From NCBI GenBank assembly GCA_037481695.1, contig JBBFLE010000021.1, positions 1-54,659 of the forward strand: a stretch of DNA of 54,659 nt, read 5' to 3'. The notes under the pieces were generated by a model that was not told the DNA's origin, ran no database searches, and saw nothing but the letters and a program-made list of their open reading frames with translations. Made by a program: the position numbers and the translations under genes. Shown here in pieces: positions 4,732-49,580 of this stretch. The DNA comes from a bacterium. Its GTDB lineage: Bacteria; Desulfobacterota; Desulfocorpusculales; Desulfocorpusculum. The number at the start of each line of letters is the position of its first letter. Positions within the stretch are counted from its first letter, which is position 1.

Positions 4732-6270
4732 ATGAAAGACTGTGTTTTTCAAGTACCTAGGCCAGCAAGGACCGGGGCCTCGGTGCTGAAAATCTTGCTC
4801 TTGCTTTGGACGAGCCTATTGTTCTCCACAGCCGCTTTTCCACAGCAGCTTTACGACAGGAGCTGGGCGGTTGTCATAGGCATAGACAATTACCAACACT
4901 GGCCTCACCTTCAGGCTGCCGTGGCTGATGCCAAGGCCATGGCCCAGAGGCTCAGAGAAATGGGTTTCGAGCCCATCACCTATCTGGCCAATGCTGAGGC
5001 CACCAGGGACAGAATTCTCACAGAGATTGGGACCCGTCTTAGCAGGGACACTGGCCCCAATGACAGAGTCTTCATCTACTTTGCAGGCCATGGGTACACT
5101 GAAGAACTCCCCAACGGGGACCAGGTGGGTTATCTCATTCCGGCTGACTGTCCCCAGTCCAACTTCTTCACCTACGCCATCTCCATGCAACAAATAAGGG
5201 AGACTTTCAGCCGCATGAGGGCCAAACACATATACTATGTCATAGACGCATGCTTCTCGGGTTACGGTTTCACAAGGGGGGCGGGCATGGTCCCTGGAGC
5301 CAGGGGATATCTGCAGGTGGTGACCGAAAAGAGGGCGGTGCAGATGATCACCGCTGGCCGAAAAGGAGACCTGGCTCATGAAGAAAAGGGGCACGGCATC
5401 TTCACCCTTTATCTATTGAGGGGCCTGCGTGGGGAGGCAGATCTCAACGGGGACGGACTGGTCACTGCCACCGAGCTTGGTGGGTATGTGCAGCCCAATG
5501 TTTATCAGGCCTCTGGCCAGAGGCAGCTACCTCAATACGGCAGGTTGGAAGGGGAAGGGGAAGTGGTCTTTCTGGTGGGAGAAGCTCCTCGCGAAAAAGA
5601 GGCCAGGGAGAAGATTCAAGCCCTGGAGAAGGAACTCTCCCAGTTGCAACAGCAAAGAAAGAGCCTGGAAGGCAAGAAGGAACTCCTTCTCACGGATATC
5701 ATGAAGCTGGATGTGGAGATCAGACAGAACAGGGAGAAAGCCCAGATGCTGGAGAAGGAGCTGGAACAAGTGAGAGCAGCCATGGAGCCTCCCAGGCCTC
5801 AGGTGCAAAGCAGACCCTCTCCACCGCAGATCCAGCAAGGGGAAAGACCTCCTGTTGCTTCGCAGCCCCCCCAGTCTGTTTCCCGTTTCAAAGACATGGG
5901 AAACGGCACCGTGCTGGACAGCCGCACAGGCTTGCTCTGGGAGAAGGGGGGGTCCCCAAGGCCTGTGCGTTTCTCAGAAGCCCAAGCACATGTGGAAAAG
6001 CTCAACCAAGAAAGGTTTGGTGGGTACTCGGACTGGCGAGTCCCCAGGCTGGAGGAACTACAGAGCCTGCTTGTGGAGAAAAGCCATGAGGGCCTCAGGC
6101 TGGATCCTCTGTTTGACCGCAGGGTCCCGGCCTGTTGGTCTTCAACACAGTACGCTGTGGGGGCCCAGAAACACCACGCGGGTTTGGACTTCAAAGATGG
6201 CACAGTGCTGACCAGAAGTGAACTCACAGAGGGTTACCATGTCAGGGCCGTGAGGGGAAAGTCTGATTGA
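4732..6270 (+). CDS. Secreted caspase-fold protease with C-terminal DUF1566-like domain
   Basis: A 512-residue protein. Residues 17-36 form a hydrophobic signal peptide with a likely cut after TAA. Residues 43-285 are a peptidase C14 (caspase/orthocaspase) domain: WAVVIGIDNY, catalytic His120 in FAGHG and catalytic Cys174 in DACFSG. A DLNGDG loop (residues 237-242) resembles a calcium-binding turn. Residues 288-350 are strongly charged and predicted coiled coil; a Pro/Gln-rich linker follows. Residues ~383-508 form a DUF1566-like domain (GLLWEK, YSDWRVP, LEELQSL, CWSSTQY). Both catalytic residues are present, so it is probably an active exported cysteine protease. Its target is unknown. It is divergent from tag and no partner protein is adjacent. 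Confidence 0.85.
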   Translation: MKDCVFQVPRPARTGASVLKILLLLWTSLLFSTAAFPQQLYDRSWAVVIGIDNYQHWPHLQAAVADAKAMAQRLREMGFEPITYLANAEATRDRILTEIGTRLSRDTGPNDRVFIYFAGHGYTEELPNGDQVGYLIPADCPQSNFFTYAISMQQIRETFSRMRAKHIYYVIDACFSGYGFTRGAGMVPGARGYLQVVTEKRAVQMITAGRKGDLAHEEKGHGIFTLYLLRGLRGEADLNGDGLVTATELGGYVQPNVYQASGQRQLPQYGRLEGEGEVVFLVGEAPREKEAREKIQALEKELSQLQQQRKSLEGKKELLLTDIMKLDVEIRQNREKAQMLEKELEQVRAAMEPPRPQVQSRPSPPQIQQGERPPVASQPPQSVSRFKDMGNGTVLDSRTGLLWEKGGSPRPVRFSEAQAHVEKLNQERFGGYSDWRVPRLEELQSLLVEKSHEGLRLDPLFDRRVPACWSSTQYAVGAQKHHAGLDFKDGTVLTRSELTEGYHVRAVRGKSD

Positions 6271-16994: not shown

Positions 16995-18005
16995 TCAAGA
17001 CTGAGCAGCCCTGAAAGCCTCCATGTAAGCAAAAAGTGCTGGGGAGCCCCCTGTGTGCACGAAAAGCACGTTTTCCTTCTTGGAGAAAAAACCTTTCCGC
17101 ACCAGATCCACAAGCCCAGCCATGGCCTTGCCCGTGTACACAGGATCCAGCAGTATTCCCTCGGTGCGAGCCACCAGCTCAACGGCCTCCACCATCTCTT
17201 TTGTGGGAATGGAGTAACCTGCACCCACATACTCCCCGAAACAGAGCACCTCTTGCCTGGGGATCTCTCCACGACATCCAGCCAGCAGAGCCGTCTCCTT
17301 GGCCAACTCCCAGACGATCTCCTCCTGCACCTGCTTGGGCCTGCTCACGTTTATGCCCACCACCGGGATCCCGCTTTGGTTGCCCCAAAACCCCACCAGG
17401 AGCCCTGCCTGGGTACCGGCGCTGCCGCTGGCGCAGACCACCCTGTCTATCTTGAGCCCTTCCTGAAAGGCCTGAGCCAGGATTTCCTCGGCGCATGCCA
17501 CATAGCCCAGGGCACCCAGCCCATTGGAAGCACCCCCTGGAATGATGTAGGGTTTCAGCCCCTTGCCCCGAAGTTCCATGCAAGTGGACTCCATCTCGGC
17601 CTTCATGTCAGAGCCCCCTGGCACGACCCGGATGGAGTCCGCCCCCAGGAGTTGGTACAGGAAGTGGTTGCCGCTTCCCTGAGGCTTGAAGCTGCCAGGG
17701 ACCCTCTCCTCCAAGACCAGGTGGCATTGAAGCCCTTCTTTTCTGGCCGCAGCCAGGGTCAGCCTGCAGTGGTTGGACTGCACCGCACCGCAGGTGACCA
17801 GGGTGTCGGCGCCTTTTTCCAGGGCATCTGCCACCACGAACTCCAGCTTGCGAACCTTGTTGCCCCCTGCAGCCAATAGCCCCAGCATATCATCTCTCTT
17901 GAAGTATATGGTGCTGCCCCCCAGGGCCTCTGTGAGCCTCTCCAGCCTTTGGATGGGCGTCCAGCCCAGCGTGTACCTCCTTCTTGGAAACCTAGCCAGA
18001 TTCAT
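16995..18005 (-). CDS. D-cysteine desulfhydrase / ACC deaminase-family PLP enzyme
   Basis: A 336-residue fold-type II PLP enzyme. The PLP lysine is in GGNKVRKLEF. Other family motifs are CGAVQSNHCR, ASGSAGTQAG, LDPVYTGKAMAGL and VHTGGSPALFAY, giving an overall pattern very close to bacterial D-cysteine desulfhydrase (pyruvate, sulfide and ammonia from D-cysteine). Known relatives of different specificity are ACC deaminase and L-cysteate sulfo-lyase (CuyA), which motifs alone cannot exclude. It is the last gene of the leftward amino-acid operon. AGGAGG precedes the ATG. Confidence 0.88.
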   Translation of the reverse strand: MNLARFPRRRYTLGWTPIQRLERLTEALGGSTIYFKRDDMLGLLAAGGNKVRKLEFVVADALEKGADTLVTCGAVQSNHCRLTLAAARKEGLQCHLVLEERVPGSFKPQGSGNHFLYQLLGADSIRVVPGGSDMKAEMESTCMELRGKGLKPYIIPGGASNGLGALGYVACAEEILAQAFQEGLKIDRVVCASGSAGTQAGLLVGFWGNQSGIPVVGINVSRPKQVQEEIVWELAKETALLAGCRGEIPRQEVLCFGEYVGAGYSIPTKEMVEAVELVARTEGILLDPVYTGKAMAGLVDLVRKGFFSKKENVLFVHTGGSPALFAYMEAFRAAQS

Positions 18006-18064
18006 CCCTTCCTCCTATGCCAAACATCTCCTATGTTGAACCCGCCTTTAAATGGAAGCTCTTT

Positions 18065-18778
18065 TCACAAAGGCTCCAGGCCGGCCTCACGTATGGCGGC
18101 CCTGGCCAGTGCCACCAGTGGATCCACCAATGGAACCGGCAGCTCCCCTGGCTCCAAAACCAGCGGGAGTTCCGTGCAACCAGCCACTATGAGCTGGGCC
18201 CCTCGCCTGGCCAATTCCAAGGCCGCCTCCCTGGCCAAGACCTTGCCTTCCTTTCTTTTTTCTAAGGCCTGAGATTCCTTGACCGAATATATTGCATACA
18301 TGATCTGCTCCTGGCTGCGGTCATCCGGCACCAGAGTCCTGAGCCCCGCCTGTTCCAGCCTGGCTTGGAACAGGCCTCCTCGAATGGTGCCCGTTGTTGC
18401 CATGAGCCCCACAATGCAAGCCCCGGCAAAGGAACTTTTTATCTCTGCCACCGTGGCATCCAAGATGGACACAATGGGAAGAGGACTGCGGGAAACCAGT
18501 TCTCCCAGAAAGAAGTGGGCCGACACGCAAGGAATCACTATGAAGTCAGCTCCGGCTCTCTTGAGGGCCTCGGCACTCTTTAGAAGGAGGGGCACCGGGG
18601 ATTCCCCTCCATGCACAATGGCGCTGGTGCGATCCGGCACCTTGGGGTTGGAATCGATGATGACCCTCAGATGCTCCTGGTCTGTTTTGGCAGGGGTGAG
18701 TCTGATGAGCTTTGCATAGAAATCCAGCGTGGCCTCTGGCCCCATGCCTCCCAGAACACCTATGGTCTTTTCTGCCAT
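18065..18778 (-). CDS. Aspartate/glutamate-type amino-acid racemase
   Basis: A 237-residue cofactor-independent racemase. The family start VLGGMGPEAT is present, and the two catalytic cysteines are in IPCVSAHFF and in AGCTELPLVL, so it should be active. Members interconvert L- and D-aspartate, glutamate or related acids. It lies between the importer ATPase and the D-cysteine-desulfhydrase-type enzyme in one operon, which suggests it supplies the D-enantiomer for that enzyme or prepares imported D-amino acids for use. The gap to the gene below is about 60 bases. Confidence 0.9.
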   Translation of the reverse strand: MAEKTIGVLGGMGPEATLDFYAKLIRLTPAKTDQEHLRVIIDSNPKVPDRTSAIVHGGESPVPLLLKSAEALKRAGADFIVIPCVSAHFFLGELVSRSPLPIVSILDATVAEIKSSFAGACIVGLMATTGTIRGGLFQARLEQAGLRTLVPDDRSQEQIMYAIYSVKESQALEKRKEGKVLAREAALELARRGAQLIVAGCTELPLVLEPGELPVPLVDPLVALARAAIREAGLEPL

Positions 18779-18822
18779 GGATGTGGATCTTCTCCTCTTC
18801 TTGCCTGTGCGGCTACTCGCTA

Positions 18823-19548
18823 CTATTTCAATATCTGGCTCAAGAATTCCTTGGTTCTCTGATGCTTGGGGTTCCTGAAGAATTCCTCTCCTGTACCCCT
18901 TTCCACTATCCTACCTGCATCCATGAAGATGATCTCGTCGGCCACCTCCCTGGCAAAGCCCATTTCGTGGGTGACCACCAGCATGGTCATTCCCTCCTTG
19001 GCCAGATCCATCATGACCTCCAGGACCTCCTGGATCATCTCTGGGTCCAAGGCAGAGGTGGGCTCGTCGAACATCATGTACTCTGGCTCCATGGCCAGGG
19101 CCCTGGCTATGGCCACCCTCTGTTGCTGTCCTCCCGAGAGATTGGCCGGGTACTCATGGGCCTTCTCTGGTATACCAACCCTTCTCAACAACTCCATGGC
19201 CTTTTCCTCGGCCTGTTTCCTGGGAATGTGCTTTACTTTCATGGGAGCCAAGGTGATGTTCTTGAGAACGTTCATGTGAGGATACAGCTCGAAACGCTGA
19301 AAAACCATCCCGATTTTCTGCCTCAGTTTATACAGGTTGGTTTTGGGATCCCCCACAGAGATCCCGTCCACTATGACTTCCCCCTGTTGGAAGGGCTCCA
19401 GTCCGTTTATGCAACGCAGAAGGGTGCTTTTGCCTGAGCCGCTGGGACCGCAAATCACCACTGTCTGGCCCCGCTGGATGGTCTCGTTTATATCCGTCAA
19501 GACCTGCAGTTTTCCATAACGCTTGCTTAAGTTCTTAATTTCTATCAT
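18823..19548 (-). CDS. Polar amino-acid ABC importer ATPase (GlnQ type)
   Basis: A 241-residue ATPase with Walker [11 protein letters not shown]-loop [10 protein letters not shown], signature LSGGQQQR, Walker [14 protein letters not shown] and switch His VVTHEMGF. The short length without a C-terminal TOBE domain is that of the GlnQ/HisP class. The ATG overlaps the stop of the permease gene (ATGA), which also rules out the apparent 190-residue N-terminal extension of the open frame, since that part is antisense-free shadow over the permease. Confidence 0.95.
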
Positions 19549-20201
19549 AGGAGGTTTGCCCTTCTTCCCTTCTCTTCGTAATAACGACTTATCCTGGATC
19601 CCACAAAACAGACAGCGAAGAACATCACTGCCACAAAACTGTAAAGCTCTATGGATCGAACCTCCATACTGTCCACTATGGTGGTGCGCCTTACCATCTC
19701 CTGCAACCCTATCACATATGCCAGGCTTGTGTCCTGAAAGGTTATTATGCTTTGGGTTATCATGCTGGGGAGCATCCTCCTGAAGGCTATGGGCACCAGG
19801 ATGTATCTTGCGGTCTGCCAATAGGTAAGGCCCGTGGAATAGGCCGCACTGACCAGATCCCGGCTTATGGACTGGAATCCGGCCCTGAAGATCTCCCCGA
19901 AATATGTGGCCTCGAACACAATGAAGGAAACCGCTGCCGAGACAAAGGGGTGCAGCGTCTTGCCCACCAAGATGGGCATGACGAAATAAAACCAGAAGAT
20001 GACCAAGATCAAGGGGATGTTGCGAAGCACATTCACATAGAGGGTGACAGGTCTGTACACCCATGGCTTTCTTGAGATCCTTCCCAGGCCCACCAGTATG
20101 CCCAGAAAGATTCCTCCCACCAAAGCGCACGCGGCAAGTTGCAGGTTGGTGAGAAAACCCGCCAATAGAAACGGAAGATTGCGCTGGACTGCCTCGAACA
20201 T
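19545..20201 (-). CDS. Polar amino-acid ABC importer permease
   Basis: A 218-residue permease of the HisMQ family with about five predicted membrane helices. The EAA loop reads [25 protein letters not shown] in outline (conserved Gly and the following Ile-Pro), the contact site for the ATPase. It starts three bases after the stop of the sister permease and ends in an ATGA overlap with the ATPase gene, so the three are translationally coupled. Confidence 0.93.
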
Positions 20202-20203
20202 CC

Positions 20204-20917
20204 CTATCTGCTCACAAGACCTGGAATGCGAAATCTGTTCTCTATGAATCCCATGAGCTTAACCACGGCAAATCCCAGCACCAGATAAACCGCCATGGCT
20301 CCGGTGGTGGCCTCTAGCCCGTGGAAGGTCTCGTTGTCTATCTTGTAACTGACAAAGGTGGTCTCGGCCACCCCTATGGTCATGGCTACCGAAGAATTCT
20401 TGAAGATGGTGAGGAACTCGGTGGTCAGAGGAGGGATTATGACCCTCAGGGCATAAGGTATTATGACGTATCTGTACATTTGAAGATGGGTCATACCTGT
20501 GGAAAGCACGGCCTGGTACTGGCCCTGGCCGATGGAGGCGAAACCAGCTCTCACATGCTCGGCCACCCGAGAGGCTGTGTAAAGTCCCAGGCCTATGACT
20601 GCCACATAGTAATTGAGCCCCGAAATGGCATTGATCTTAAACTGGATTTCCCTACCAAATAGCATGGGGCCAGCATAGAACCAGAAAAACAACTGTACCA
20701 GAAAAGGCACGTTGCGAAACACTTCCACATAGAGGGTCCCCAAGAATCTGAGCCAAGGCCATGGAGACACCCTAATTGTACCAAGGAAGATTCCCAGTAC
20801 CAGGGCTATGATCCAGGCCAAAAAACCAAGCTGCAAAGTAAGCCATATCCCCCCGAGGAGCCACTCCCCATAAGGCTGTCTCCAAAGTACACTCCAGTCA
20901 AACTTGTAAGCCAGCAT
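20204..20917 (-). CDS. Polar amino-acid ABC importer permease
   Basis: A 237-residue HisMQ-family permease, partner of the one downstream. Its EAA loop is [21 protein letters not shown], again with the conserved Gly. ATG 20917 is preferred over a TTG at 20953: AAGGG is about eight bases upstream, while the TTG has a ribosome site only two bases away. The start of hydrophobicity ([17 protein letters not shown]) fits the shorter form. Confidence 0.92.
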
Positions 20918-20965
20918 TACCTTTACCCTTGTTTTTCTCCCCTGATCAGCCAAATCCTTTGACGC

Positions 20966-21010
20966 GCCCAGCCCGCACCATTGCCATAGTCACAGTAGTG
21001 CGGGCTGGGC
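20966..21010 (-). other. Intercistronic stem-loop between binding protein and permease
   Basis: A perfect 13-bp GC-rich inverted repeat (arms 20966-20978 and 20998-21010) with a 19-base loop. It lies in the 228-base spacer after the binding-protein stop and before the first permease. It has no T-run, so an mRNA-stabilising or partial-termination role that raises binding-protein output is more likely than full termination. Confidence 0.6.
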
Positions 21011-21145
21011 AAAGCATTCCCAAAGGCTCGCTGGAGAAGCCACCCCCAAAAACCATCCAGCTCTCATTATCCAAGAGAAGGTTCAGAAGCCAAAGGATCC
21101 AACAGCCTCTACCCCCCAAAAAATCGGCCCATGATTAGGCCATGC

Positions 21146-22048
21146 TCATTTCTTCTTCCACCAATCTTCGCCCATGGGGTACACGATGAGCTGCAGGTAA
21201 TCCTTGTACGCCTGGGACATGGGGATGGGAGTATGCCCTTTGGGGCCCATCCACTTCTCGTATATCTCGTAAAACTTGCCGGTCTTTATGGACCATAGGA
21301 TGGTGTTATTCACAAAATCTCTGAAGTCAGAGTTGTTCTCCCTCATCATGTAACCGTAAGGTTCATAGGCTATTGCGAAATCCGTTGTACGCCAGTTCTC
21401 TGGCTTCTCGTCCTTGGAAGCCAAACCCATGAGAAGGCTTCTGTCAGTGGCATAGGCATCTATCTTGCCTGTCTTGAGGGCCAGGAAGCCCTGGGCATGT
21501 CCTTCCACGGTCACTATTTCCTTGGGTTTTATCTTACCTGCCTTGGCCATGTCCTCCATGGCCTTCAGGTTTGTGGTGCCCTGGGCGCCCCCCAACCTCT
21601 TGCCGTCCAGATCACTCAAGACCTTTATGGGGCTGTCTTTGGGCACCAGGAAGGCAGTTTCAGAGAAGAAGAAGATGAGGCTGAAGTCCACCACATCCTC
21701 CCTTTCCTGGGTATAGGTGGTGGAGCCCATCTCCACGTCTATGGTCCCGTTTACCAGCATGGGGATGCGGGTCTTGGTGGTGATGGTCACAGGTTCTATC
21801 TCTATCTTCTTCCCAAAACGTTTGGAGAGGTTCTCCACCAACAGTTGCGCCATGTCCACGGAGAACCCTACGTGTTTGCCCACCTTGGGGTCTATGAAGG
21901 CAAAGGGTATGGAATCCTCCCTAAACCCGATTCGTATCTTGCCGGTCTTCTCTATCTTGTCCATGGTTTCTCCGGCCCATGTCCAAGCACCCATGAAAAG
22001 GATCCAGCCCAAAATCAAGACTCCCATAGCCCATTTCCAGCGTTTCAT
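21146..22048 (-). CDS. Polar amino-acid ABC importer substrate-binding protein
   Basis: A 300-residue periplasmic binding protein of family 3. Residues 1-25 form a Sec signal peptide (MKRWKWAMGVLILGW, cut near TWA). The mature part carries the family pattern: GKIRIGFREDSIPFAF, VDMAQLLVENL, STTYTQEREDVVDFSLIFFF, LDGKRLGGAQGTT. ATG 22048 has AGGAGGTG at the right distance; the frame is open 75 bases further up without a site. It is the first gene of a six-gene operon with two permeases, ATPase, racemase and PLP lyase. The ligand is unknown; the downstream enzymes suggest a sulfur- or sulfonate-containing or D-configured amino acid. Confidence 0.94.
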   Translation of the reverse strand: MKRWKWAMGVLILGWILFMGAWTWAGETMDKIEKTGKIRIGFREDSIPFAFIDPKVGKHVGFSVDMAQLLVENLSKRFGKKIEIEPVTITTKTRIPMLVNGTIDVEMGSTTYTQEREDVVDFSLIFFFSETAFLVPKDSPIKVLSDLDGKRLGGAQGTTNLKAMEDMAKAGKIKPKEIVTVEGHAQGFLALKTGKIDAYATDRSLLMGLASKDEKPENWRTTDFAIAYEPYGYMMRENNSDFRDFVNNTILWSIKTGKFYEIYEKWMGPKGHTPIPMSQAYKDYLQLIVYPMGEDWWKKK

Positions 22049-22566
22049 CTCACACCTCCTAGATGGGATTATTCGCCGAGGCAGCCGCCTCCTGTGGCCC
22101 AGTTCCCCAGGAGCTTGAAACATCCTCCAATCTGTGCCGGCCCAATCTCTTTATCCAACAAGGCAAAAAAAGCCTCCCCTTCTAGAAACAGCAACGACCT
22201 GGCAATGGCCCCTCCTCAGGCATCGGGACTCAGACTTGCAAACTGTCTTTCTCTTCTTTGGGTTCCATGACCCAGGAAGCTCCAAGGATATCAGCCTTCG
22301 CCCGAGGATTCAGGCTTTTTTTTCATCTATATGATCTGGCTTTAGAAAAAAATTTAAAGGCCTGATTGCGCTGCCCAAATTATCCCAGCAAGGTTCCTCT
22401 GTCAATCTGAAAGCTTCTGGCTCTCTGCAGCCACGCTTCTGAGATCTCAGGATGGCCTCCTGGTTCTTGAACTTGGAATCAGCACAGCTCTTCTATCAAA
22501 ACTATGGCTCCTTCTCAAAGTGGGATAACATACTGTGGTAGGCTATAGAAAAGGAGACCATTGAGC
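22049..22566. other. Divergent intergenic region
   Basis: This 518-base spacer separates the binding-protein gene (leftward) from the PFK-2/FBPase-2 gene (rightward). It holds one good leftward promoter and A/T-rich stretches near 22315-22365. No coding frame or RNA gene was recognised. Confidence 0.5.
22377..22405 (-). promoter_or_regulatory. Sigma70-type promoter for the amino-acid importer operon
   Basis: On the minus strand, TTGACA (22405-22400) is followed after 17 bases by TAATTT (22382-22377). An alternative -10, GATAAT (22384-22379), gives a 15-base spacer. The implied leader to the binding-protein ATG is about 320 bases. Confidence 0.42.
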
Positions 22567-23775
22567 ATGCCCGAGAAACTGGTTCTGGCCATGGTGGGAT
22601 TACCTGCCAGGGGAAAGTCCACCATGGCAAGGAAAATAGCCCAAGCTTTCCAGATGGATGGACTCCGTGTCCGGGTCTTCAACAATGGAGAACTAAGAAG
22701 GCGCCTTACAGGCCCTGAGACCTCCCATCCTGATTTCTTTTCACCCACCAATCTCCAAGGTGTAAAGCTGAGGGAAAAGCTGGCCATCATAAATCTGGAG
22801 CTGGCAAAAGGATATCTTCAAGAGTCTGGTGATGTGGCCATAGTGGATGCAGCCAATGTGACCAAGTCAAGGCGCAAAATGATCCAGGAATTTTTTCAGG
22901 GGACCGTGGTATTGTTTTTGGAGTGTGTCAATTCGGACCGCGAGGTCTTGGAAGCCAATCTGGCTAGAAAAGCCGCACTAAAGGAATTCCAAAGCCTTCC
23001 GGCCACGGAGGCCATGGAGAGCTTCCGCTCGCGCATATCTCACTATGAATCCATTTACGAGCCCCTGGCAGAAGAAAAGAACCGTTTGGTGGTGGACTCC
23101 TTCGAGTGCTCTATTCTTCAGGAGGAGTTCGCCCAGGAGGTGCCCTATTATGAGAGGCTCAGAGATGTGATCCTCACCAGATATGTGAACCACCTCTACC
23201 TGGTGCGCCACGGTGAGACCATCTTCAACCTTCAAGATCGTATTGGAGGTGATCCTGAATTGACCCTCAGGGGCTGGCAGCAGGCAGAGGAGCTAGCCAA
23301 CCATTTCAAATCCCAGAGGATTCCGCTGATTTTTACCAGCTCGCGCAAAAGAACCCGTCAGACAGCCGTACCCGTGGCCAGAAGTCAAAAGGACTGTACC
23401 ATAATCGCCCTACCGGAGTTTGATGAGATCAACAGTGGAGTATGTGAAGAGATGACTTACAAAGAGATCAGGGAACGCTTCCCTCATGTGGCTGAGGCAA
23501 GGCGAAAAGACAAGTACGGCTACGTCTATCCAGGTGGAGAAGGCTATGCCACCATGGAGGCCCGCATCGAACGCGGCCTGCGCAAGGTGTTCTATCTCAG
23601 TAGGCCAGAGGACAGCATCATGATCGTAGGCCACAGGGCTGTGAACCGAATGATTCTTTCACACTTTGTTTTCAGAAGGAAGGAGGAAGTGCCTTACATC
23701 TACATGCCTCAGGACGGCTACTATCACATAGTGGTCACTGCCAATACAAAGCTCTTCGAGCTAAAGAGATTCTGA
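22567..23775 (+). CDS. Bifunctional 6-phosphofructo-2-kinase / fructose-2,6-bisphosphatase (PFKFB type)
   Basis: A 402-residue protein with both halves of the eukaryotic PFKFB enzyme, which makes and breaks the regulator fructose-2,6-bisphosphate. Residues 1-200 are a kinase domain: Walker A GLPARGKST (11-19), NNGELRRRL, DAANVTKSRR, RISHYESIYEPL. Residues 208-402 are a histidine-phosphatase domain: LVRHGET with phospho-acceptor His215, RIGGD, TSSRKRTRQTA, EINSGVCEEMTYKEI, YPGGEGY, and the second His (356) in VGHRAVNR. All key residues are present. ATG 22567 is preferred over a TTG six bases upstream because AAAGGAG is better spaced. It stands alone and is convergent with mqnA. Both activities are predicted, not shown. 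Confidence 0.85.
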   Translation: MPEKLVLAMVGLPARGKSTMARKIAQAFQMDGLRVRVFNNGELRRRLTGPETSHPDFFSPTNLQGVKLREKLAIINLELAKGYLQESGDVAIVDAANVTKSRRKMIQEFFQGTVVLFLECVNSDREVLEANLARKAALKEFQSLPATEAMESFRSRISHYESIYEPLAEEKNRLVVDSFECSILQEEFAQEVPYYERLRDVILTRYVNHLYLVRHGETIFNLQDRIGGDPELTLRGWQQAEELANHFKSQRIPLIFTSSRKRTRQTAVPVARSQKDCTIIALPEFDEINSGVCEEMTYKEIRERFPHVAEARRKDKYGYVYPGGEGYATMEARIERGLRKVFYLSRPEDSIMIVGHRAVNRMILSHFVFRRKEEVPYIYMPQDGYYHIVVTANTKLFELKRF

Positions 23776-27186: not shown

Positions 27187-27600
27187 CTCCCATGATTGCA
27201 TGAAGAAGTTTGGCATTGAGCCTTGCACGTCTTTGCCAGGGCCTCACAAGTTAGCCTTGGCACAAAACCAATCCCAATGCGTCAGGTCCGGCGGATCTCA
27301 CCGCCTCTCACCCCACGCCGGGTGACGCCAAGGCGAAGGCGCTCCCTGGCACAATTCCATTGACAAGAAATTGAGGTCATGGTACAGGTTGCCACATGTC
27401 GAAGACACAATCTTGCGCTGGACTCCAGTCCCCGGCTTTGAACGTAATACACTCTTTACGGTGGGGGGACGGCAAGACTGAACCGGGCCAAGGCTAAGAC
27501 GCATGTAGGCCTTTGGTGAGTGCACTCGCCAGTGCCGAATGCTCGTTCAAAGTATGTTAGCCCACGAACAGATGGTACAATTGTCCAAGAGAATGCACCT
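27187..27600. other. Left flank of the accessory patch; possible small cassette
   Basis: No convincing gene. A 75-codon minus-strand frame (27525-27298) is followed by another ~17 open codons after its stop, and looks like a decayed or spurious reading frame. Two copies of GTTAGCC lie at 27250 and 27556, the spacing expected for a short integron cassette. A divergent attC-like palindrome ends at the second copy. Confidence 0.35.
27492..27562. repeat. Possible divergent attC-like site upstream of the first MNT gene
   Basis: Outer arms GGCTAA (27492) and TTAGCC (27557-27562) are complementary. A central near-palindrome TGGTGAGTGCACTCGCCA lies between them, plus a GCAT/ATGC pair in the middle zone. 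The 71-base size is right for attC, but the outer boxes fit the GTTRRRY rule imperfectly. The MNT start codon is 38 bases further on, as expected for a cassette gene. Confidence 0.3.
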
Positions 27601-27891
27601 ATGAACGCAAACGATATTGTCACCAAGCTAAAAGAATTAAAACCCACAATCGCTACGCGCTATAAAGTGCGAAAAATAGGTCTTTTTGGTTCTTTTGTTC
27701 GTGGAGAACAAGAAGTGAGCAGTGACATTGATCTGCTGGCAGAGTTTGAAGACAAGGCAGACTTGTTCGACTTGATCGGGCTGGCATTGTATTTGGAAGA
27801 AATATTCCAGCGTAGAGTAGATGTGGTTCCCAAGCAAGCTCTTCGCCCAGAACTGCAAGAATCCGTCCTCCAACAGGTTGTAACTTTATGA
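27601..27891 (+). CDS. MNT-domain nucleotidyltransferase antitoxin (MntA type)
   Basis: A 96-residue minimal nucleotidyltransferase. The GSx10DxD motif is complete (GSFVRGEQEV then SSDID), with the third acidic residue in RRVDVV. MntA proteins neutralise their HEPN partner by AMPylating a tyrosine. The ATG at 27601 fits the family start, though the ribosome site is weak. It overlaps the HEPN gene by ATGA. Base composition is more A/T-rich than in neighbouring core genes, consistent with acquisition by transfer. The pair sits in an integron-cassette-like setting. Confidence 0.9.
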   Translation: MNANDIVTKLKELKPTIATRYKVRKIGLFGSFVRGEQEVSSDIDLLAEFEDKADLFDLIGLALYLEEIFQRRVDVVPKQALRPELQESVLQQVVTL

Positions 27892-28226
27892 GAGACTATA
27901 CCCTTTATTTGAAGGATATTCTGGATGCCATAGGGAGTATTGAACGCTTTATCGCAGGAATGGATTTGGAGGCATTCCAAACAGACGATAAAACCGCCAG
28001 CGCGGTAATGCGAAAGCTTGAAATCATCGGGGAAGCAGTGAAACAGATACCTGATGAAATACGCGAAAAGTGCCCTCAAACTCCATGGAAAGAAATGGCG
28101 GGTATGGGAGACAAATTAATCCACTTTTACTTTGGGGTGGACTATCGTCTAGTTTGGAAAGCGATTACAGAACGATTGCCACAAGTCAAGCAAGAAATTG
28201 AGAAGATATTGCAAAAGGCGGACTAA
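27888..28226 (+). CDS. HEPN-domain toxin (HepT type) lacking the catalytic arginine
   Basis: A 112-residue HEPN protein, partner of the MNT gene it overlaps. HepT toxins are RNases with an R-x4-H-x-Y motif. Here the segment reads GMGDKLIHFYF: His79 and Tyr81 are kept, but the Arg is replaced by Gly74 (codon GGA at 28107-28109, one transition away from AGA). RNase activity is therefore probably lost or reduced, while the AMPylation target tyrosine is kept. The stop codon lies inside the first box of the attC-like site, a typical end of an integron cassette gene. Confidence 0.88.
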   Translation: MRDYTLYLKDILDAIGSIERFIAGMDLEAFQTDDKTASAVMRKLEIIGEAVKQIPDEIREKCPQTPWKEMAGMGDKLIHFYFGVDYRLVWKAITERLPQVKQEIEKILQKAD

Positions 28227-28785: not shown

Positions 28786-28987
28786 GGCAGGCCTCGCTAC
28801 GGCTGGGCTGCGCCTGCGTTCCTCCCCAGCACCCAAAAACACCAGGAAGGGAGGTGATTGCCTTCTCAGAAAACCCAAGCTTCCGGACAGGATAAAGGCG
28901 GTGTAAAATCCCAATTCGGGCACCCCCAGGGGTGGTCAATATCCGTGAAAAACCCCTGGGTCATATGCGCGAAAAGTGACACTGGCC

Positions 28988-29293
28988 ATGAACCCAGCTA
29001 TTGCGATACCAAAAGAAGAGATAGCCGAGTTCTGTCGCACCCATCACATTCGGCGCTTGGCCGTGTTCGGTTCGGCATTACGCGCCGATTTTCGGCCGGA
29101 CAGTGACATTGACATTCTTGTCGAGTTTGAGCCGGGACACATTCCGGGGCTGTTTGGCATGGCCCGCCTGGAGCGGGAACTCTCGGCATTGCTCGGCGGC
29201 CGCAAGGTGGATTTGCGTACCCCGGAGGATTTGAGCCGCTACTTCCGCCAGGAGGTGATGGAAGAGGCCGAGGTGCAGTATCCGCAAGGATGA
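28988..29293 (+). CDS. MNT-domain nucleotidyltransferase antitoxin, second pair
   Basis: A 101-residue MntA-type protein with a complete GSx10DxD ([10 protein letters not shown] then DSDID) and the third Asp in RKVDLRT. Sequence and codon use differ from the first MNT (G/C-rich here), so the pairs are separate acquisitions, not a recent duplication. The ATG lies six bases after the right end of the IS21 remnant, so any ribosome site and promoter must come from the element. Its stop overlaps the beginning of the HEPN frame. Confidence 0.88.
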
Positions 29294-44884: not shown

Positions 44885-46045
44885 TTAGAGGGATTCCAGG
44901 AGTAATTCAGAGAGATCCAATATCGGGAGTTCTTCTTCCTTGCCCATGGTCTTGGTTGAGGCCTCCAGCATCACCACACAATAAGGACAGGCCGTGACCA
45001 TAGCCTGCGCCCCTTTGGCAAGAGCTTCCTCCACCCTCAGGTCCCCAAATCTTTCCCCGGGGGCAGTCTCCATCCAAATTCGGCCCCCACCGCCTCCACA
45101 GCACAGGCTGTTGGCGCGAATGCGATCCAGCTCTTGGAATTCACCGTTTGCCACGGCCTGAATCAGAGCCCTGGGCTCATCGAAGACCTCGTTGTGCCGT
45201 CCCAAGTAGCAGGGATCATGATACGCTATTTTTCGGCCTGAAGACTTGCTTGGTTTCAGCTTCCCTTGCTTCACAAGCTGGGCCAACATCTGGGAATGGT
45301 GCGCCACCTCGAACTCCCCACCCAACTCTGGGTACTCCTTGGTGAAGGTAAAAAGACAGTGGGGGGAGGTGGTAATTATCTTTTTTACTCCCTTGGACTG
45401 GAAAAGCGAGATGTTTGCCTGGGCCAATTTCTGGAAAAGATCTTCGTCACCGATCTTCCTCACTGATTCACCACAACAGCTCTCCTGCTCTCCTATCACA
45501 CCAAAGCTAACACCGGCTTTCTTCAGAAGCTCCACCACCGAACGAGCTATCTTCTGACTGCGCACGTCGTAGCAGGATGTACAACAAACAAACAGAAGGT
45601 ACTCGGTCCCCTCTGAGAAGACAGGCACATCAAGCCCTTTCATCCATTCGGTGCGTTTGTCCCTCTCTCCAGACCAGGGATTCCCATGGCTGTGCAGACT
45701 TCCGATCACAGGCCTGTAGCTTCCAGGCACTGTTCCCACAGAGGCCAGCATGCTTCTCATGCCCCTTACGTTGTCAATTATTTTCACCTGCCTGGGGCAT
45801 CGCACCACGCACTGACCGCAGGTGCTGCAAGCGTAGATGACCTCCTCAGACTCGAAACCCTCCAAGCCCAGTTGTCCCAGTCTCTGCACCTTGCGGATAT
45901 TGAAAGACTGGGAGATGTGACCAGGCACCAGTCTCCAGGGACATGAGCCAGTGCAAAGCCCGCACTGCATGCACCAATAGAGAGTTTCTGCTCCCGAGGC
46001 CACTATGGCCTCGCTGACTTCCAGAAAAGGTGTTCTAGCTTCCAT
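44885..46045 (-). CDS. Fused HdrC/HdrB-like (HdrD-type) Fe-S protein
   Basis: A 386-residue cytosolic protein. Residues 22-90 hold two [4Fe-4S] motifs as in HdrC (CMQCGLCTGSC and CSTCGQCVVRC). Residues ~150-386 have two CCG domains as in HdrB (CCTSC with ESCCGE and SPHCL; YHDPCYLGRHN with NSLCCGGGGG and TACPYC), which bind the noncubane clusters of thiol/disulfide chemistry. No membrane helix is present, so it is not QmoC. It is cotranscribed with qmoB-like and qmoA-like genes, so it probably replaces QmoC as electron partner. GGAGG precedes the ATG. Confidence 0.88.
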   Translation of the reverse strand: MEARTPFLEVSEAIVASGAETLYWCMQCGLCTGSCPWRLVPGHISQSFNIRKVQRLGQLGLEGFESEEVIYACSTCGQCVVRCPRQVKIIDNVRGMRSMLASVGTVPGSYRPVIGSLHSHGNPWSGERDKRTEWMKGLDVPVFSEGTEYLLFVCCTSCYDVRSQKIARSVVELLKKAGVSFGVIGEQESCCGESVRKIGDEDLFQKLAQANISLFQSKGVKKIITTSPHCLFTFTKEYPELGGEFEVAHHSQMLAQLVKQGKLKPSKSSGRKIAYHDPCYLGRHNEVFDEPRALIQAVANGEFQELDRIRANSLCCGGGGGRIWMETAPGERFGDLRVEEALAKGAQAMVTACPYCVVMLEASTKTMGKEEELPILDLSELLLESL

Positions 46046-46085
46046 GTCTTTTTTCCTCCAATGGGGGAGCGCAGCCTCCTGCCCC

Positions 46086-48314
46086 CTAAAATCCTTTGTA
46101 TGGATTGGGTCCTATCTCCTGTATTCGCTCCATAAAACTCTCCACCAGGGAGGGGATCCTGGTGTAATCCCTTATCTCCACCTGCTCCAGACGCACCCTG
46201 TCCGACTCCAAGGCCAATCTGTCAAGGGTCTCCGAGACCTTGGAAAGCCTGTACTGGGCCAGCTCACTTCCCTTTATCATGTGACACTGGTAGTCGTCCC
46301 CATGTTTGCAGCCCAACAAAAGCACCCCATCTATTCCTTTGGAAAGGGCGTCCGCCACCCATATCAAGTTGAGGGAGCCCAGACATCTAACGGGAATGAC
46401 CCTCACATACGGATTCCATCGGAGCCTGCGCTGTCCCAGCATATCCAAAGCCGGATATGCATCGTTTTCACAGGCCAGCACCACCACCCTGGGCTTCTCC
46501 TCGTCCTCTTCTGGCACCTCTATGGCCTTGATCATGGCCCCTATCATGTCCACAGAATAATCCTTGAAAGAGATGATACGCTCAGGACAAGACCCCATGC
46601 ATATGGAACATCGCCTGCAGCGGGTTGGATTGGGAAGGGGATTGGCCTTCTCATCCTCGTTGATTGCACCAAAGGGGCACTCCTCTGTGCATCTCTTGCA
46701 CTGGGTGCAACGCTGCATGAAGAACTCCGGATATGAACGATCTCCTGCCCTGGGATGTACAGCCTCCCCCCTCGCGGTCATCTCCAGACACTGGATGGCC
46801 TTCAGGGCAGCCCCCCTGCCATCCTCTTCTGCCCCCAAGGTGTCCATGGGCTGCCTCACGCATCCTGCCGCATAAATGCCAGTGCGACGTGTTTCGTAAG
46901 GAAAACAGATGAAGTGGGAATCCGGCATGCCGTAACGCAGCTTGGGTAGCTCCGGTCCCTGCCTGTATTCCAAGAAAAGAGCCATTCCCTCTTTTTGCCG
47001 ATCTGTCACCGAAGTAGGTTCAGCCTGGGCTTCCTGGGAACCCTGGGCCACATCTGGGCCACCTGCCATGTCAGCATCCAAAGCCATGGAAGGCACCATA
47101 CCGGTGGCCAGCACCACCATGTCTCCTTCCAAGCTCAGTCTCTCTCCGGCCAGGACATCATCCACCTCCACCACCAGCTTGCCTGAACCATCCCCGGCCA
47201 CAGAGGCCACCTCACCCTTGAGGAAAACACATCCCTGTTTTTGAAGCTTTCTGTAGAACTCCTCATATTGGCCTGGAGTTCTCATGTCCTTATATACAAT
47301 ATACACTGCCGTAGAGGGTTCTTGCTGCTTCAGATAAAGGGCCTGTTTGAGGCTCACCATGCAGCACACAGAAGAACAATAGGGCAGATGCTGTGGATCC
47401 CTGGATCCTGCACATTGGATGAATATCACACTGCCTGGAACGCTCTGGTCCGAAGGCCTTGTTATCTTCCCTTCCCTGGCCGCACGCTCCTCCAATTCCA
47501 CATTGGTGACCACATCCGGACTGAGCCCATAACCCAGGTGACCAAGGCGGGCAGGATCATATGGCCTCCAGCCTGTGGCCTGCACGATGGAGCCGGCTTT
47601 GAAGCTGTCTTGCCCCTCTGCTCCATTGACCGTCACCTGGAACATGCCCGGTGCGCCTTGAATGGACTTAATTTGGGTGGAGCACAAGACCTTGATGTTA
47701 GGGTGGGATTTCACCTGGGAGACCACGGCATCCAGTTCCACCTCCTCCAGTTCCCCGTAAGGTGGGTGCACAGGGTATCGCTTCCATTGCCTGGCCAGCC
47801 ATCCCCCCAGCTCCTGCTCCTTTTCCACTAGGGTGACCTGATAGCCCGCCTTGGCAGCCTCCAGGGCAGAGATCATTCCCGAAATCCCTCCTCCCACCAC
47901 CAAAACGCTCTTTTCCACTTCCGCCTGGTAAGGCTCCAGAGGCTGGGACTTCTGAACCCTCACTATCCCCATACGGATGTAATCCTCGGCCATCATCTGG
48001 GTATCTTCGTCCCCTGCAGGAAGCCCCCATACGACCTGTTCCCTGAGATTAACCCTCTCCACAACCAAATTATCCGGGAATCGAAACACATCGGTAAGCG
48101 CCCTGGGCGAACAAGCTGCAAGCACCACACCGTTTACTCCCGCCTTCTCCACATCCTCAAGGATCAGACTCATTCCTTCCTGGCTGCAGTAAGCCTGGTG
48201 GCTGCGGCACACAGAGGCCTTCATCTCGCCTGTGGCCACCTTGGCCAGCCCATCCAGGTTCAGCGCTTCACCGATCCCACATCCTGAGCACAAATACACC
48301 CCTATCTTATCCAT
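46086..48314 (-). CDS. QmoB-like flavoprotein with MvhD-type C-terminus (HdrA family)
   Basis: A 742-residue HdrA-family protein. Domains in order: an N-terminal SGCG-type segment (residues ~1-130, LCSGCGIGEAL), a FAD domain (VLVVGGGISGMISALEAAKAGY), QmoB-specific region IQCAGSRDPQHLPYCSSVCC, two [4Fe-4S] motifs (CTQCKRCTEECP and CRRCSICMGSCP), and a MvhD-like C-terminal ~140 residues (VRCLGSLNLIWVADAL, GVLLLGCKHGDDYQC). This is the build of QmoB in sulfate reducers, where Qmo passes electrons between menaquinone and APS reductase. No aprAB genes are here, so the partner may differ. Confidence 0.9.
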   Translation of the reverse strand: MDKIGVYLCSGCGIGEALNLDGLAKVATGEMKASVCRSHQAYCSQEGMSLILEDVEKAGVNGVVLAACSPRALTDVFRFPDNLVVERVNLREQVVWGLPAGDEDTQMMAEDYIRMGIVRVQKSQPLEPYQAEVEKSVLVVGGGISGMISALEAAKAGYQVTLVEKEQELGGWLARQWKRYPVHPPYGELEEVELDAVVSQVKSHPNIKVLCSTQIKSIQGAPGMFQVTVNGAEGQDSFKAGSIVQATGWRPYDPARLGHLGYGLSPDVVTNVELEERAAREGKITRPSDQSVPGSVIFIQCAGSRDPQHLPYCSSVCCMVSLKQALYLKQQEPSTAVYIVYKDMRTPGQYEEFYRKLQKQGCVFLKGEVASVAGDGSGKLVVEVDDVLAGERLSLEGDMVVLATGMVPSMALDADMAGGPDVAQGSQEAQAEPTSVTDRQKEGMALFLEYRQGPELPKLRYGMPDSHFICFPYETRRTGIYAAGCVRQPMDTLGAEEDGRGAALKAIQCLEMTARGEAVHPRAGDRSYPEFFMQRCTQCKRCTEECPFGAINEDEKANPLPNPTRCRRCSICMGSCPERIISFKDYSVDMIGAMIKAIEVPEEDEEKPRVVVLACENDAYPALDMLGQRRLRWNPYVRVIPVRCLGSLNLIWVADALSKGIDGVLLLGCKHGDDYQCHMIKGSELAQYRLSKVSETLDRLALESDRVRLEQVEIRDYTRIPSLVESFMERIQEIGPNPYKGF

Positions 48315-48320
48315 GGGCCA

Positions 48321-49580
48321 CTACCTCCCCAACAAGGACTGGATGGCCAGAAGTGCCGCACCGGTGGCGTCCTGAACGCTGTGCGCCACATCCACGGGTT
48401 TCTTGACACATCCTGCTGGAATTATCCCAGAAGACACAGACTCGGTCAGAAAGCCGTAATCGTCGTAAGATACCTGGCCTGGAACCTGCCGATTCACACT
48501 GGTGGGCACCATTCCAGTGGCCAGAACCACCAGATCGGCCTTTGCCTTCATAGCCTTCCCCTGCTCCACATCCTCCACGGTCAGAACCAGCTCTTTGCTT
48601 TCTTTGTCAGCTACTATGTCGGCCACCTTTCCCTTGACCAAGGAAATCTTTTCGTCAGACTTCACACGATTGTAAAAATCCTCCAGCCGCCCCAATGCCC
48701 TTACATCAATGTAGAAGATCGTGATCTCTGCATCGGGATATTGTTCCCTCACATAAAGGGCCTGTTTGAGTGAAGCCAGGCAGCATACTCCAGAGCAATA
48801 AGGCAGGTGGTTCTCGTCTCTGGAGCCAGCACACTGCACAAAGGCCACCTTGTTCACTGCAGATCCATCCGAGGGTCTGAGAATCTTCCCCCCAGTAGGT
48901 CCATTTATGGAAGAGAGCCTTTCCATCATCACATTGTTGATGACATTGGGATGCTCTCCAAAGCGATAGTACGGGACCCTGGAGGCATCGAAAGGATCCC
49001 AGCCAGTGGCCCAAATCGCAGCCCCCACCTCTAAACTCAGGCTCTTCCCCTTCATCTCCAATTCCACTGCTTGAAAGGGGCATACTTCTTTGCATTTCCC
49101 GCAATCAGGCCCCAGGCAGGCTCCAGGATCTATGACATACCTGGCCGGAAAGGCCATCTCATGTGGCAGATATATGGCTTTTGTCTTATCCAGTCCATAG
49201 TTGAACTCATTGGGCCTTTCCACAGGGCAGACCTTTTCACACTCCCCGCAGGCAGTGCACCTCTCATTGACTAGTCTGGGATGCACTTCCACCTTGGCCG
49301 TCATGTGCCCTGGTTCTCCCTGGAGTTCCACAACCTCGGCCATGGTGTATACCTGGATCTTGGGATTCTTCCTGATCCTGCGGAAATTGATCTCCAAACC
49401 GCATTGGGGCGGACACATCTTGGGAAAATAACGATTGCTGCGAGCCACCCTGCCCCCCAAGTAAGGGGCCTTTTCCACCAGGTAAACGGGAAAACCCACT
49501 TCAGCGGCTTCCACAGCGGCCGTAAGCCCGCTTATCCCGCCACCCACCACCAGGATCCCCCTCTGTGCTGCGCCTGACAT
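48321..49580 (-). CDS. QmoA-like flavoprotein (HdrA family)
   Basis: A 419-residue HdrA-family protein. FAD binding: ILVVGGGISGLTAAVEAAEVG. Conserved parts near the N-terminus are CPPQCGLEINFRRIRKNP; two Fe-S motifs follow, CTACGECEKVCP and CGKCKEVCP; then FVQCAGSRDENHLPYCSGVCC, the same pattern as in QmoB. It ends with a second FAD contact (VLATGMVP) and GCVKKPVDVAHSVQDATGAAL. Length and motifs match QmoA. It is first in the operon, six bases before the qmoB-like gene, behind a strong promoter. Confidence 0.9.
   Translation of the reverse strand: MSGAAQRGILVVGGGISGLTAAVEAAEVGFPVYLVEKAPYLGGRVARSNRYFPKMCPPQCGLEINFRRIRKNPKIQVYTMAEVVELQGEPGHMTAKVEVHPRLVNERCTACGECEKVCPVERPNEFNYGLDKTKAIYLPHEMAFPARYVIDPGACLGPDCGKCKEVCPFQAVELEMKGKSLSLEVGAAIWATGWDPFDASRVPYYRFGEHPNVINNVMMERLSSINGPTGGKILRPSDGSAVNKVAFVQCAGSRDENHLPYCSGVCCLASLKQALYVREQYPDAEITIFYIDVRALGRLEDFYNRVKSDEKISLVKGKVADIVADKESKELVLTVEDVEQGKAMKAKADLVVLATGMVPTSVNRQVPGQVSYDDYGFLTESVSSGIIPAGCVKKPVDVAHSVQDATGAALLAIQSLLGR

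Follow-up and report, generated by a model that had tools for sequence, protein, structure and literature searches.

A PFKFB-like protein family in Desulfobacterota that probably makes and hydrolyses fructose 2,6-bisphosphate

A gene from the desulfobacterial genus Desulfocorpusculum quite likely encodes a genuine bacterial PFK-2/FBPase-2, a single protein that would both make and hydrolyse fructose 2,6-bisphosphate, and the family to which it belongs is an established bacterial one in this phylum. Fructose 2,6-bisphosphate is generally viewed as a signal of eukaryotes, and the passages found in a 2025 glycolysis review describe it for mammals and plants. A sequence-only reading of this DNA had likewise regarded it as a eukaryotic system. 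While this is indeed the customary view, an exception had already been published, since one paper (PMC9721465), with reference to Rider et al. 2004, gives Desulfovibrio desulfuricans as the sole bacterium with this compound. Both the kind of enzyme and one bacterial case are thus already known, and what we add here is the breadth of the family, the analysis of its residues and its link to class I fructose-1,6-bisphosphatase (FBPase). D. desulfuricans reduces sulfate and belongs to the group which, we believe, makes up this phylum; the relatives that we label family f40 may include its family, while the protein described here belongs to family f1. Our literature search, which had most subscription journals outside its reach, found no paper on the distribution of the bacterial enzyme or on a purified one.

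Results

The window, by which we mean the whole stretch of 54,659 nucleotides that was analyzed, carries an intact open reading frame on the forward strand (22561/22567-23775), with the following features.

22549..22566, + strand: Shine-Dalgarno-like sequence AAAAGGAG, a few bases 5' of the ATG; the sequence is seen, its function is putative
22567..23775, + strand: predicted PFK-2/FBPase-2 (PFKFB-like bifunctional enzyme), 402 aa, ATG start, alternative TTG at 22561
22576..23085, + strand: 6-phosphofructo-2-kinase domain (Pfam 6PF2K, residues 4-173, E 4.6e-42)
23194..23745, + strand: fructose-2,6-bisphosphatase domain (His_Phos_1, residues 210-393, E 6.7e-38)

As defined by Pfam, a single chain has the 6PF2K kinase at its N terminus and the histidine phosphatase at its C terminus, which is the order of domains in eukaryotic PFKFB (rat PFKFB4, 3bif; human PFKFB1 and PFKFB3, 1k6m and 2axn). 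Catalytic and substrate-site residues of the eukaryotic proteins are conserved in both halves. In the kinase domain, these are the Walker A motif GLPARGKS and equivalents of PFKFB4 R78, R102, D128, R136, K172, R193 and Y197; in the phosphatase domain, they are the catalytic histidines of RHG and GHR, the glutamate of DEINSG and equivalents of Y338, R352, K356, Y367 and R397 (liver numbering). The RIGGD, CEEMTYKEI and YPGGE blocks are present as well. Mammalian PFKFB isoforms have an N-terminal regulatory extension, which the window protein does not possess, its first kinase strand following after only about five residues. It also differs from PFKFB at the positions of Thr130 (Ala) and Gln393 (Arg).

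Searching sequences in the PDB, we found that the 12 best matches of the window protein were all PFKFB1-4, with E values from 5e-61 to 6e-58 and alignments running from residue 5/6 to residue 382/388. Two more PFKFB entries, consisting of the phosphatase domain alone, matched with E about 3e-32. In contrast, plain phosphatases (phosphoserine phosphatase, CobC and PhoE) reached 5e-12 at best and aligned to the phosphatase half only. Identity to rat PFKFB4 is about 36% over 365 positions, end to end. No NCBIfam profile for PFK-2 matched the protein; the best NCBIfam match was alpha-ribazole phosphatase (TIGR03162), which at 96.8 bits falls below the model cutoff of 162.9. CobC, the alpha-ribazole phosphatase, shares the phosphohistidine fold and the RHG/His core with the window protein, as do PspA, TIGAR and other histidine phosphatases, but proteins of the CobC, PspA and TIGAR types have no kinase domain. 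An AlphaFold model computed from the single sequence had a mean pLDDT of 34 and was not used. Since the Pfam domains and the whole-length matches to PFKFB1-4 agree with the motif check, the earlier description of a PFKFB-like kinase followed by a PFKFB-like phosphatase with intact motifs was correct. By sequence, the window protein is most likely a true PFK-2/FBPase-2.

We searched 394 sampled genomes of the phylum with Pfam 6PF2K and obtained strong matches in 58 of them (about 15%, roughly one in seven), with scores of 105-176 bits in open frames of 326-585 codons. Because 57 other genomes of the phylum thus encode the same family, the pattern seen in the window is not a product of chance. 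The carriers fall into ten families (f1, f15, f30, f32, f33, f39, f40, f49, f58 and f64 in our labeling). Forty-seven relatives were extracted, which align end to end except for one (L135) cut by a contig end. Those of the main clade mostly share 45-63% identity with the window protein. Two f58 proteins, with about 36% identity to the window protein and about 39% to PFKFB4, represent a second, divergent bacterial type.

L099 9022-10221, - strand: predicted f58-type PFK-2/FBPase-2
L100 4754-6013, + strand: predicted f58-type PFK-2/FBPase-2

Presence is patchy, since the nearest sampled relative from the host's own family with a near-complete genome (G001) has no PFK-2/FBPase-2 gene. Fourteen well-known control genomes gave no 6PF2K match above the cutoff, and a scan of named genomes with the single window protein returned plain phosphatases only (37 loci, nearly all in Streptomyces). 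In plasmid and phage collections no place covered 80% of the query, the matches listed hitting only the phosphatase half, and a scan of viral contigs confirmed no relative of the window protein.

We then surveyed residues in an alignment of 47 bacterial family proteins with rat PFKFB4. The roles of the surveyed positions as catalytic or substrate contacts are those of the mammalian enzymes, in which Asp128, Lys172, Tyr197 and the arginines form the kinase/fructose-6-phosphate site, His258, Glu327 and His392 the phosphatase site, and Arg352 and Lys356 bind fructose 2,6-bisphosphate by its C6 phosphate. Equivalents of kinase K51, R78, R102, D128, R136, R137, K172, R193 and Y197 are invariant in all 47 bacterial sequences. 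In the phosphatase half, R257, H258, N264, E327, R352, K356, Y367, H392 and R397 are kept in every sequence that covers them, and Y338 has an equivalent in 44 of 47. R307 appears as Leu in one of the 47 rows, but it is Arg throughout once the 46 uncut rows are realigned. The pair R352 and K356 (rat liver numbering) occurs in 46/46 family members; among plain histidine phosphatases, which come almost entirely from the same phylum, the count is 0/26. For the full set of five C6 contacts (Y338, R352, K356, Y367 and R397), the counts are 43/46 and 0/26. The two PFKFB positions altered in the window protein vary differently across the family: Thr130 is retained as Thr in 39/47 members, and Arg replaces Gln393 in 35/47. 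As read from the alignment, the substrate sites are compatible with fructose 6-phosphate in the kinase and fructose 2,6-bisphosphate in the phosphatase.

In a tree of the phosphatase half, the main bacterial family, the f58 type and vertebrate PFKFB group together at 100/100, apart from the 26 plain phosphatases. The kinase-half tree also clusters PFKFB with the bacterial family, in a topology where most forks are unsupported and the outgroup branches are very long. When full-length proteins were used, a deep main bacterial clade split from PFKFB plus f58, so that, of the two bacterial types, f58 is the nearer to vertebrate PFKFB. Branches within the main clade largely track host families (f15, f64, f33, f40 and f30), and the window protein adjoins f64 and f15. 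Such a pattern is that of an old gene, which would have been passed down vertically, with losses in many lineages. The label "eukaryote-type" given in the sequence-only reading therefore holds in the sense of a PFKFB homologue, but not in that of a borrowed eukaryotic gene, since the tree is that of an old bacterial family following its hosts.

In eukaryotes, fructose 2,6-bisphosphate inhibits class I FBPase. A class I FBPase gene is present in all 58 carrier genomes versus 178 of the 336 noncarriers. Counted by genome, Fisher's test gives p 5e-15, a value inflated by kinship; an estimate by families, using a hand-counted list of about 105 of them, gives p of about 0.005. Ten genomes of f33/f49 have the FBPase gene on the same strand as PFK-2, 2.7-4.8 kb upstream of it. 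The genes in between are on the opposite strand, which makes this a conserved neighborhood rather than an operon, and it may be one inherited arrangement because f33 and f49 are close in the tree. The gene in the window stands alone, and no neighbor is common to the whole family. Phosphofructokinase (PF00365) was found in all carriers except one. This genome (G236, locus L124), which is 95% complete, has PFK-2/FBPase-2 and class I FBPase and no detectable PF00365 phosphofructokinase. In the genome of the window, the closest solved structure to the class I FBPase is 2gq1, which we take to be the E. coli enzyme. Two of its three phosphofructokinases were read, one having GGDGS and the other GGDDT, presumably the signatures of the ATP and PPi types, respectively. 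FBPase in every carrier, the f33/f49 neighborhood and the lack of PF00365 in G236 make inhibition of FBPase the best-supported candidate role for the signal, whose probable target would thus be class I FBPase.

Other parts of the window offer a glimpse of the host. Within 16995-22123 (- strand), genes for the D-cysteate sulfo-lyase CuyA (518 bits, cutoff 450) and the cysteate racemase CuyB (249 bits, cutoff 190) adjoin those for the ATPase, the two permeases and the binding protein of an ABC transporter for polar amino acids, a cluster that probably serves cysteate uptake and desulfonation. Three genes at 44885-49580 (- strand), encoding CCG/Fer4, FlpD plus FAD-oxidoreductase, and FAD-oxidoreductase proteins, resemble QmoCBA of sulfate reducers, and it is only because of them that we call the host sulfate-reducing-type. 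Adjacent small ORFs at 27520-28226 (+ strand) look by eye like an MNT nucleotidyltransferase/HEPN pair, another MNT-like ORF lies at 28976-29293, and the protein encoded at 4732-6270 (+ strand) combines a caspase domain (Peptidase_C14) with an Lcl_C domain at its C terminus.

Discussion

We propose that the N-terminal domain would phosphorylate fructose 6-phosphate at carbon 2, with ATP as the donor, yielding fructose 2,6-bisphosphate, and that the C-terminal domain would take this C2 phosphate off again via a phosphohistidine intermediate. One protein making and destroying the compound would set the level of the signal, which may act mainly by inhibiting class I FBPase, and hence on gluconeogenesis or carbohydrate storage, with phosphofructokinase as a possible second target.

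How likely is it that the gene has a different origin? Domain order and motifs match those of vertebrate PFKFB, as would be expected if a eukaryotic gene had recently been transferred or had contaminated the assembly. We rejected both versions and consider them very improbable, because carriers are spread through the phylum and the branching of the tree mostly agrees with host families, the window gene lying beside f64/f15. Moreover, identity is about 36% to PFKFB4 versus up to 63% to bacterial relatives, GC3 is 0.61 versus 0.62 in a neighboring gene, a ribosome-binding site of bacterial type precedes the start and there are two deeply separate bacterial types. Even less credible is a chimera, suggested by the top NCBIfam match of the phosphatase half, in which a cobalamin-type (alpha-ribazole) phosphatase would have been joined by chance to an unrelated P-loop kinase. 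That match falls well short of its cutoff, the PFKFB alignment spans the whole protein, and the phylogeny places the phosphatase half with vertebrate PFKFB at 100/100, apart from the plain histidine phosphatases. Trees separating the halves among unrelated kinases and cobalamin-type phosphatases had been named as grounds for abandoning the original reading, and the identification as a PFK-2/FBPase-2 homologue withstands that check. This candidate was rejected too.

Departures from the proposed activities carry somewhat more weight. It is unlikely, though conceivable, that only one activity operates in vivo, e.g., that of the fructose-2,6-bisphosphatase, the kinase being weak, or the other way round. 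PMC9721465 reports that some eukaryotic isoforms, including two fungal ones, are monofunctional despite having both domains, and the Thr130 to Ala change lies in the kinase half. However, catalytic residues are intact in both halves and are kept across the family. Slightly less plausible to us is that the same fold and chemistry serve another sugar phosphate, the two domains forming a kinase/phosphatase pair for a different sugar bisphosphate. The changes at Thr130 and Gln393 would fit such a shift, and no conserved operon names the pathway. The remaining contact positions for fructose 6-phosphate and the C6 phosphate are nevertheless invariant or nearly so, the C6 pair does not occur in plain histidine phosphatases, and co-occurrence with class I FBPase is constant. 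A PFK-2/FBPase-2 acting on fructose 2,6-bisphosphate thus remains the reading that we prefer.

Taken together, a family in about 15% of sampled genomes, a substrate site that has been kept and a class I FBPase that is always present make bacterial use of this signal directly testable. The bacterial family also has a bearing on the origin of the eukaryotic enzyme. The eukaryotic side of our trees consists of vertebrate PFKFB, and with this sampling descent may have run in either direction between the two domains of life; the trees and the 58 carriers among 394 genomes speak against a recent eukaryotic transfer. We tentatively raise the possibility that many families of this phylum have kept fructose 2,6-bisphosphate by vertical descent as an ancient regulator, chiefly a brake on class I FBPase, and that the eukaryotic system descends from it or shares an ancestor with it. 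If so, the system would not be a eukaryotic invention, and the f58 type would be the nearest to the vertebrate enzymes.
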